Source: an uncultured Halomicronema sp. (GTDB taxonomy: Bacteria > Cyanobacteriota > Cyanobacteriia > Phormidesmidales > Phormidesmidaceae). Taken from it: a stretch of 47,762 bases of DNA. The stretch lies in NCBI GenBank assembly GCA_937899725.1, contig CALCCA010000127.1, positions 1 through 47,762 on the forward strand, given 5' to 3'. The position numbers and the translations under genes are program-made. A model generated the notes under the pieces. That model was given only the letters and a program-made list of their open reading frames with translations, searched no databases and was not told where the DNA came from. Shown here piece after piece: positions 12,838-47,762 of the stretch. Numbering within the stretch: the first letter of the stretch is position 1; every line of letters starts with the position of its first letter.

Positions 12838-12891
12838 AGTGACCTTAGCTTAGAGTTTCACTCTTTAGTTATACCTCAGTCATACCCAGGG

Positions 12892-14080
12892 CTATTTCAT
12901 TCTGAAAATGCGTATGAGTGTGTCTAGGCCAAACTTACAATGTCTCTCGGCCTGAGCCATATTATCGAAATCATTGGAACGATAGAGATTCAAAGCAAAG
13001 TTACGGGCGACGGCAAAGATTTGCGGTAACTGATGCATCCGAATACGGGAGGCGTCTTCTCCCTGAGTGACATCCCGAACATAGTGCACCTTATTTTCGA
13101 CGCCCCAGTAACCCCGAATTCGTTGAGCAAAGGCCTCCGCAGACTCGATAAACGAGGCCACATAGTAGCGAGTTTCGGTTTCTAACCGAGGCTGTCCGCC
13201 CTTCTTAAATTGGCGTTGACTCTCGACTCGGATCAAGGTCTGCAGTCCGGGCCAATCGGGGATGTGTTCCAAGGCTGTGCACAAACTCACCACCCGGTGT
13301 TCAATCCGTCCATGCCCCTTGCTGATGTCGGTATGGCTCGCTTCGGCCACAAAATGAGCCTGCACGCTCTTGTGCAGGTTGCCCTGATTCCCTTTCAACG
13401 CCCCGAGATAGTGATTGCCGCTCTCAACAATGAGGCGACAAGTTGGTCTTGGTGCGCGTTCCCTAGCGCCGGAAACCGGCGCGGGGTCGCACCGCTTTTT
13501 GAGTGCTAATGGCATCAAAGGCAAAGACCACTCCGTTCACCGCCAGGTGCTGGATAAATGCTGGCAACGCCTTGATTTCATTAGTTTTGCTGTCTACCTG
13601 ATACGGTTCTAAAATGAGTCCTCGCTCCACGAGATAGACGCTCACCAACTGGATGGCGGGATGCGGCGGGGAGTCGGGGCTGTCGATTTCGAGTTGATAG
13701 GAACCCCGTAAGACTTTGCCATCCATCGCGAGGGTTTCGCCGGGTAACGGTTCTATCCCGAAGAACCGCGCCAGGGCCATGGAGTAGGCTTGATAATCCA
13801 GGGTCAACAGCACGCGCCGAATCGTACTGTAGGACGGGAGTCGTTGTCGGGGTGGGTTGAAGAGTTCAATCAGTTCACAACGGTAACTGTTTAACCAGTC
13901 ACCGATCGCTAGAAAGCCCCGATTTCCAGCCGTTACCGCCAGGGTAAACAGGGCCAAACACAATGTCATTTGGTGTCGTTTTCCAGAAGCCTGGCGCATA
14001 TCAGGGAGTTCGGCAAACGCTTCTAGAATCTCGATGTGTTCTGAGGAAGAGGGGGTAGGCAAACTCATGGCACATTCCAA
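12892..14080 (-). pseudogene. ISAs1-family transposase, disrupted
   Basis: The N-terminal part (205 residues, from the ATG at 14078-14080) has FAELPDMRQASGKRHQMTLC, FLAIGDWLNSY and LAMDGKVLRGS, and runs to VVFAFDAISTQK. The C-terminal part continues in another frame with CRLIVESGNHYLGALKGNQG, YWGVENKVHYVRDV and the end KFGLDTLIRIFRMK. The frame is broken only by the 43-base palindrome at 13451-13493. Removing exactly those bases joins the two parts in frame (Thr-Gln-Lys-Ala-Arg-Pro-Thr-Cys). The transposase is probably inactive as it stands. Confidence 0.9.
13451..13493. repeat. 43-bp palindromic insertion inside the transposase gene
   Basis: A self-complementary unit, GGTGCG...CGCACC, enclosing CCC/GGG and a perfect seven-pair core GCGCCGG-TTT-CCGGCGC (given on the transposase strand). 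It interrupts an otherwise intact ISAs1 transposase, so both its boundaries and the pre-insertion sequence are readable. No second copy was found in this window. It may be a very small mobile palindrome of the REP or tiny-MITE kind. Confidence 0.75.
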
Positions 14081-14308
14081 GTCTCACTATAGTCTGAGAC
14101 CCTAGCACACTATGGCTTCCGCAAGAATGAAATGGCCCTGCAGTCATACCAGAGCTGTAAGAGCTAGCATACTGGGATACCCGCAGATAGCCCTTCGGTA
14201 CGTCCTGAGCCGAACAACAAAGCTAGTCGAAATTTATTAGAGAGAGTCTTTCCGCCCAACACGATGGTCTCTAAAAGGTGTTTCGACCACGGATACCTAT
14301 ATGAGTTA

Positions 14309-30408: not shown

Positions 30409-30454
30409 CTCCGCCGTGCCTGAGGCAATAGGGTAGCGAACGCTTTGTTTAAGT

Positions 30455-47586: not shown

Positions 47587-47762
47587 TTAAGCTGATTGCG
47601 AGGGCGATCGCCGTCTCCGGCGCATCGACAAACTGGTGGCTGCCAGCGCGCCCAGTCCGATGACGAAGCCGGGTTCTGGCACTGATGCCACATCAGGCTC
47701 TTCACCACCGGGTTCTTCGCCGCCGGGTTCTTCACCACCAGGCTCTTCACCGCCGGGCTCTT
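47587..47762 (-). CDS. PEP-CTERM protein, C-terminal part only (runs off the window)
   Basis: The minus strand encodes at least four perfect EPGGE five-residue repeats, then DVASVPEPGFVIGLGALA, and a final basic tail (MRRRRRSPSQSA). This is the PEP-CTERM sorting signal: a Pro-Glu-Pro motif, a hydrophobic segment and a terminal Arg cluster, recognised by exosortase. The mature protein is probably exported and processed. Start, domain content and full length lie outside the window. The acidic Gly/Pro/Glu repeats form a flexible stalk before the anchor. Confidence 0.88.
   Translation of the reverse strand, partial: EPGGEEPGGEEPGGEEPGGEEPDVASVPEPGFVIGLGALAATSLSMRRRRRSPSQSA

Follow-up and report, generated by a model that had tools for sequence, protein, structure and literature searches.

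Bacterial genomes commonly carry very small palindromic repeats, and it is unsettled how they move and how repeats without genes pass between species. In Nostoc and its relatives, eight families of small dispersed repeats (SDRs), 21-27 nt long, were reportedly described by Elhai et al. in 2008. The SDRs are said to have a conserved secondary structure with compensatory changes and to be nested in themselves and in other repeats, and they are regarded as mobile. One source gives their size as ~20 bp (PMC2884548). The CGTC REPs (Di Nocera et al. 2013, PMC3733652) are short palindromes with an unpaired CGTC, TGTC or CCTC tag, an 8-9 bp stem whose first two pairs are A-T, a 4-5 nt loop and a CCA-like tail. 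According to that paper, they have no known dedicated transposase, some lie inside ORFs, and apart from a few fortuitous cases they are not associated with transposase genes (PMC3733652). The palindromic elements of Rickettsia (RPEs) are described as inserting in frame into coding genes and adding codons (PMC10969869, PMC3733652); those of one account measure ~150 bp and lie in metabolic genes (PMC10969869).

Here we describe a palindrome in a cyanobacterial genome that, judged from sequence comparisons, is probably a member of a dispersed family of structured mobile elements only ~51 bp long, which are of the REP/SDR kind and ride insertion sequences (ISs). In our best reading, the copies form a new palindrome family that behaves in two ways: in cyanobacteria distant from one another it sits at low copy number within IS transposase genes, and in Phormidesmis-type genomes it grows in tandem or self-nested fashion. 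We know of no element so small that has been described with a comparable transposon-riding life.

The palindrome and its ISAs1 host

The window is the whole stretch of DNA analyzed, 47,762 nt from an uncultured Halomicronema sp. whose genome comprises 6.99 Mb in 216 contigs. Within it, the palindrome lies inside an ISAs1-family insertion sequence, with the following features.

12877..12886, no strand: left 10-bp target duplication of the ISAs1 copy, CAGTCATACC
12887..14140, minus strand: complete ISAs1-family insertion sequence, with 17-bp imperfect terminal repeats at 12887-12903 and 14124-14140
12892..13524, minus strand: orfB, second transposase frame, the ISAs1 catalytic half, open through the element with 17 extra codons
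13445..13495, no strand: 51-bp net gain over uninterrupted ISAs1 copies, with the empty site CAAGTT/TTTTTGAG
13446..13495, plus strand: palindromic element copy, 50-bp core GTCTTGG...CACCGC, antisense to the transposase
13451..13493, no strand: hairpin, with outer arms 13451-13456/13488-13493, middle CCC/GGG 13461-13463/13483-13485, inner stem 13466-13472/13476-13482 and loop 13473-13475
13463..14080, minus strand: orfA, first transposase frame, Pfam DDE_Tnp_1_assoc (2.1e-17), with its TAG end inside the element
14141..14150, no strand: right 10-bp target duplication of the ISAs1 copy, CAGTCATACC; the duplication is perfect

The sequence-only reading had placed the palindrome within an ISAs1 transposase, and the NCBIfam model transpos_ISAs1, which matched the second half of the gene at 6.4e-38, confirmed this assignment. 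That reading had proposed a search for further copies of the palindrome and for uninterrupted ISAs1 copies, and both were found: the segment is not native to all relatives of this transposase, and copies of it exist elsewhere. Uninterrupted ISAs1 copies occur in the same genome (L007 on contig C211, L010 on contig C63) and in related genomes (L070, L071 and L072). From end to end, L070 and L071 measure 1203 bp and the window copy 1254 bp. Such empty copies rule out the palindrome as a native part of ISAs1. Aligned with five uninterrupted copies, the window copy is longer by a net 51 bp (13445-13495) instead of the 43 bp (13451-13493) originally delimited. The repeat unit is 51 bp once the T after the 50-bp core is included; in the window copy, a G stands at 13445 in place of the expected duplicated T.

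At the insertion site, five uninterrupted ISAs1 copies carry a run of seven A (A7), and their transposase halves lie in different frames; the window insertion splits this run. The more distant copies L075, L078 and L082 have a single transposase frame without the A run. The loci given for the A7 site, beside window positions 13443-13500, are L069, L070, L071, L005 and L072, and two more distant ISAs1 copies (L081, L083) have A8 at the same codons. In its sequence context, the A7 of the uninterrupted copies is likely a programmed frameshift or transcript-slippage site. Deletion of the 43 bases had been taken to restore the transposase frame. This restoration is an artefact, because the uninterrupted copies already switch frame at A7; the actual insertion, of 51 bp, has a length divisible by three. 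Its effect on the first transposase frame is to bring in the TAG stop at 13463-13465.

The window hairpin has outer arms GGTGCG/CGCACC, an inner stem of 7 bp and a loop of 3 nt. Of the earlier description as self-complementary from end to end, the arms, the CCC/GGG tier and the seven-pair core stand; full complementarity does not, since an internal loop and a bulge are left unpaired and the palindrome is imperfect. Only 3 of 4772 segments of 43 bases, sampled every 10 bases, equaled or exceeded the fold energy of 13451-13493, that segment itself being counted. When the 50-base unit was folded as RNA, none of 200 shuffles matched it on the plus strand and one of 200 did on the minus strand; the signal was weaker for the 83 bases around the palindrome folded as DNA, where 4 of 200 shuffles folded as well. 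Rfam covariance models returned no match to window positions 13300-13650 at E values up to 1. A group II intron, an attC site or a dif-like site was provisionally set aside, the GGTGCG arm varying between copies. Translational bypass of the mitochondrial byp type was set aside by eye, as the codons on either side of the unit differ.

Elsewhere in the window, two further strong hairpins lie at 30451 and 40441; judged by eye as inverted repeats of 13 bp (perfect) and 23 bp (nearly perfect), they are possibly terminators. The window ends (47696-47762) in a short tandem array of 15/30-bp units.

Copies, structure and host genes

Two further full copies were found in the same genome, on contigs C17 (93% identity) and C143 (96%), and a permissive search of that genome returned nothing below E 0.39 besides these three copies. 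The C143 copy sits in an IS5-group transposase. A relative of the C17 copy (L012), L057, with flanks 86% alike, lies in an IS630-type transposase, and the C17 frames read likewise. Among related genomes, 6 of 58 others gave matches; 3 of 5 other genomes of the same genus yielded no copy. An exact-pattern scan of 84,980 species found 26 loci, all with cyanobacterial titles. A covariance model matched 16 of the 291 class genomes sampled and 15 of the 63 family genomes, this genome counted in each, and one genome gave at least 95 matches. The distribution is patchy, the element being absent from 275 of the 291 class genomes.

Several derivatives accompany the family. A weak match within the same genome, on contig C71 (L036/L037), is a rearranged palindromic derivative of the element: in an IS5-like stretch, apparently at the position of the C143 copy, the left half of the element and an inverted copy of it form a more perfect palindrome. 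At L192 (contig C95 of genome G298), the right arm is inverted within an open IS5 transposase frame, a hairpin rearrangement. A variant family shares the inner hairpin and has different outer arms (CTCGCGCG...CGCTCG); it is represented by L193-L195 in G172, where seven matches were counted, and by L043 in Xenococcus. For the weak hits L196 and L197, the profile gave no confirmation.

An alignment of 35 copies was almost gap-free. In order, the element consists of GTCTTGG, a three-tier hairpin and CACCGCT, and is too short for a gene; its 16 pairs have G-C at the stem base and enclose a 3-nt loop, with a GC(T) tail. Pairing was present in 91.6% of 560 cells, compared with 83.3% after shuffling. 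The covariation score was 0.247 against 0.088, and none of 500 shuffles, which ignore relatedness, was as high. Compensatory changes on both sides affect 6 of the 16 stem pairs, in 50 cells compared with 17.3 in shuffles, relatedness not being allowed for. Every slid version of the structure scored below the actual register. The number of pair types was barely raised (15 versus 13.5, with 37 of 500 shuffles equally high). Outer arms occur as GGTGCG/CGCACC, GGTAGG/CCTACC, GGTGAG/CTCACC, GGTGGA/TCCACC and GGTCAG/CTGACC. We give virtually no weight to a chance hairpin, an ordinary terminator or a native transposase segment: the hairpin with the T run of its target does resemble an intrinsic terminator antisense to the transposase, but the compensatory changes, the dispersed copies and the empty sites argue against all three, and many copies have no T run at the target.

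Strand-specific pairing bears on how the element might spread. Standard pairs fill 545 of 560 cells on the minus strand and 513 of 560 on the plus strand. The gap is due to one pair, columns 24-34, where standard plus-strand pairing is missing from 31 of 35 copies, most of them having C.A, which reads U.G on the minus strand. Spread through RNA into A/T-rich nicks has reportedly been suggested for the Nostoc SDRs. A corresponding route here, in which a transcribed minus-strand hairpin is reverse transcribed into such nicks, would fit this asymmetry and the poly-A positions in ISAs1, IS630 and IS701. We consider it unlikely, because without that one pair the wobble cells number 8 against 10, and the copies are in mixed orientation relative to host genes.

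Reading the frames around the copies and scanning the host frames with Pfam and NCBIfam, followed by a tally by hand, gave 21 distinct host positions in transposase genes, in both orientations and in 10 IS families: ISAs1, IS630, IS5, IS1, IS256, IS6, IS21, IS200/IS605 (TnpA and TnpB), IS701 and ISAzo13. The L189 host is ISAs1 by NCBIfam, the IS6 copy is located in G319, and the copy at L067, inside a TnpA gene of another genome, is an insertion and not a flanking position. When the high-copy genomes G033, G230 and G319 were excluded, 16 of 26 classified distinct positions lay in transposase genes (16 of 28 once two weak hits that lack confirmation are added). The binomial probability of 16 of 26 is 2e-10 if transposases are assumed to make up 10% of the genome and 4e-6 if 20% is assumed. 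Outside transposases, copies sit for instance in a GT41-type gene (L063) and at the 3′ margin of a toxin-antitoxin gene (L186). Transposase residence is not universal, since most copies read in G033, G230 and G319 lie outside transposases; no transposase host was recognized at the loci of G230 (Cf. Phormidesmis LEGE 11477), where L051, L056 and L059 were scanned and the rest judged by eye.

Insertion sites, recurrence and effects on host transposons

Empty sites were found at two positions each for ISAs1, IS1 and TnpB, and also for IS6, IS21, IS5 and the element itself. At both ISAs1 positions (A, that of the window, and B), in IS1 insB, IS6, IS21 and IS5 (L022), at one TnpB position and within the element, the net insertion is 51 bp. 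It is 50 bp in two lineages of IS1 insA, and 52 bp, as aligned, at another TnpB position (L053) and at L190. Beyond the 50-bp core, empty sites thus show 0-2 extra bases. Target preference was read from 119 hits that scored 30 or more, spanned nearly the full profile and had enough sequence on either side; these gave 58 distinct flanks, and removal of same-position copies with a hand list left 48 sites, some of which are still related intergenic repeats and one of which (L160) has the host position of the window. Position −2 is a pyrimidine in 47 of the 48 and position −1 in 46 (T in 39); +1 is T in 38, and C is common at −4 (29) and −5 (26). Among the 48, the unit starts with G 38 times and with C 7 times, mostly followed by TC. 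The other copies, the empty sites and the many unrelated locations in several species bear out the sequence-only guess of a tiny mobile palindrome.

The same host position can be occupied in lineages that differ far more in their flanks than in the element. The window and L049, which occupies the corresponding ISAs1 position in a different species, have flanks 67-80% alike and an element identical at 50 of 50 bases. Corresponding values are 53-67% and 48 of 50 for TnpB loci L168 and L169, 60-73% and 49 of 50 for a pair in IS1 insA, and 75% (on the alignable side) and 50 of 50 for two IS701 subfamilies of G178. Two IS21 copies within one genome (G033) have 150-bp flanks 73-78% alike; their longer open frames, aligned by codon, are 65-66% alike with saturated synonymous divergence, and the element is 98% identical, with one base different. 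On these sequence comparisons, the contrast between element and flanks fits recurrent insertion into a favored position, or intragenomic conversion, better than descent; gene conversion within a genome could be a partial cause of the recurrence. The proposal that the window palindrome was captured shortly after insertion finds no support here: the closest empty copy seen, L071, is 93.5% identical (6.5% different) across the 200 bp compared, and the identical unit at L049 has the divergent flanks given above.

Vertical descent of a few old insertions, with gene conversion keeping an element that is no longer mobile uniform, is a further account of these pairs that we judge quite unlikely. In keeping with it, element variants often track the IS lineage, as the shared unit of the window and L049 illustrates, and several same-position pairs lie within one genome (IS21 in G033, IS701 in G178). 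Against it stand the 21 host positions in 10 IS families of the hand tally, the identical units across species with such dissimilar flanks, and the 23 identical units among 48 full ones in G319.

The effect on the host gene varied. The frame remains open through the unit in IS21, IS1 insB, ISAs1 position B, TnpB of G201, several IS5 copies and a glycosyltransferase gene. In IS1 insA the unit causes a frameshift, and a junction TAA breaks the IS701-like G178 gene. Across seven TnpB copies of G201, 0 of 50 positions vary within the unit, compared with 124 of 1175 flanking positions (Fisher p = 0.007). Three of these copies keep an intact frame with the unit, with dN/dS of 0.08-0.11 across the gene; in the remaining four, the frame downstream is lost. 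Such dN/dS values are what a TnpB still working with 17 additional residues should give, provided that the unit preceded the divergence of the copies.

All 12 G178 copies among the matches listed belong to one IS701-like family, and the junction TAA is present in each copy read, at least 8 of them distinct. Among the 40 scored of 110 candidates, no uninterrupted IS701-like copy spanning the position was found. Several near-identical IS701-like copies of G178 (within L208-L237) lack an internal stretch found in others, for example in L182; these internal deletions make movement in trans likely, and we make no claim of recoding.

This G178 pattern bears on a different reading, that the hairpin is a functional part of the IS and regulates transposase decoding, either as a frameshift stimulator or as a segment that is skipped or bypassed. 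The confinement of the listed copies to one family with a junction TAA, the placement of the ISAs1 hairpin in the A7 run where frames change, and the better conservation of the element than of its flanks would all agree with such a role. We nevertheless regard it as highly improbable, given that uninterrupted copies of the same ISs exist (ISAs1, IS1 and others), that the deleted G178 copies may move in trans, that the A run and the stem are only 2 nt apart, and that copies lie either way round, at a variety of positions and also in arrays between genes. This variability of orientation and placement was the ground for dropping the frameshift-stimulator idea.

Copies in Phormidesmis-type genomes are tandem and self-nested. 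In G319, we counted 48 full units in 40 regions (from at least 95 matches): 31 adjoin another unit head to tail, 14 are in nested arrangements and 23 are identical.

Possible modes of movement and comparison with described repeats

We favor a mobile element of the REP/SDR kind, and for its life cycle we tentatively propose, as something that may but need not hold, that the 51-bp hairpin is a site-preferring transposon parasite that homes time and again to shared conserved positions in the transposases of many IS families, with ISs as its interspecies vehicle and an in-frame length that keeps some host proteins functional. The route would involve site-preferring, unit-length transposition, in which the unit inserts whole behind a short pyrimidine-rich target (approximately CCNYT, often before T) with at most 1-2 extra bases. 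Its own 3′ end (ACCGCT) appears target-like, and a similar TTCCCT lies within the left half; together these would account for the head-to-tail arrays and the self-nested copies, and head-to-tail copies at 51-bp steps are expected where the ACCGCT end serves as target. ISs would act as the vehicle: they are dispensable, multi-copy and horizontally transferred, so that residence in one would multiply the element and take it from species to species. With a length divisible by three and no stop in four of its six frames, the insertion would be tolerable as 17 extra codons. Several observations speak against this account: no Y1 match lies beside a copy among those listed, the net length varies from 50 to 52 bp, most genomes searched lack the element, most copies read in G033, G230 and G319 are outside transposases, and the window copy has its G at 13445.

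Movement on single-stranded DNA by a Y1/HUH transposase (RAYT or IS200/IS605-like) would also suit an REP-type element. The foot of the hairpin would be the recognition site and the pyrimidine-T target would take the role of the tetranucleotide, with no target duplication. The target preference and the resemblance of the element's end to the target are consistent with this route, as is an unpaired 5′ tag, TGTC, CGTC or NCTC with the preceding base counted, close to the CGTC, TGTC or CCTC of the CGTC REPs (PMC3733652). This tag is read only with a preceding T or C, so its first letter belongs to the target. Y1_Tnp matches were present in all ten genomes checked (G319 excluded), 40 in total, but none lies beside a copy among the matches listed; the nearest is 3.7 kb away, from a truncated copy in G033. 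Nor was the RAYT (REPtron) arrangement, a Y1 gene flanked by repeats, seen in these ten genomes among the copies listed. Moreover, the net length ranges over 50-52, and the stem begins with G-C and has a 3-nt loop, not the A-T pairs and 4-5 nt loop given for CGTC repeats. On balance, we consider Y1/HUH-driven movement rather unlikely.

Taking the palindrome as a mobile element, the clean empty sites, the target motif, the recent expansion in G319 with its 23 identical units of 48 and a plausible IS vehicle make the question of palindrome movement testable. For annotation, the family carries a warning, as a number of 'pseudogene' transposases in these cyanobacteria are broken by one defined unit.

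Among the open-licence papers that literature searches listed, no title or abstract opening described the element sequence or a transposase-resident palindrome family. Like a MITE, the element is a small non-coding mobile repeat; at the empty sites, however, target duplications beyond 1-2 bp were not seen, and its ends were not recognized as terminal inverted repeats of any IS. With the RPEs it shares a palindromic unit and, at some sites, in-frame insertion that adds codons, but it is 51 bp long, lies mainly in transposase genes, is cyanobacterial and breaks the frame in several insertions. The likeness to the CGTC REPs lies in a short palindrome with a possible tag at one end, in some copies within ORFs and in the fact that neither has a transposase known to serve it. 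The element lacks their stem, loop and tail, having a 16-bp three-tier stem, a 3-nt loop, no A-T base and no CCA, and it forms direct arrays and nests in itself, whereas those repeats form head-to-head dimers. The SDRs, as reportedly described, are likewise short, structured, dispersed, self-nested cyanobacterial repeats. By description, the element differs from them: it is ~51 bp long compared with the reported 21-27, and in low-copy genomes it resides largely inside IS transposase genes. This transposase residence is the unusual part of the behavior of the palindrome family.
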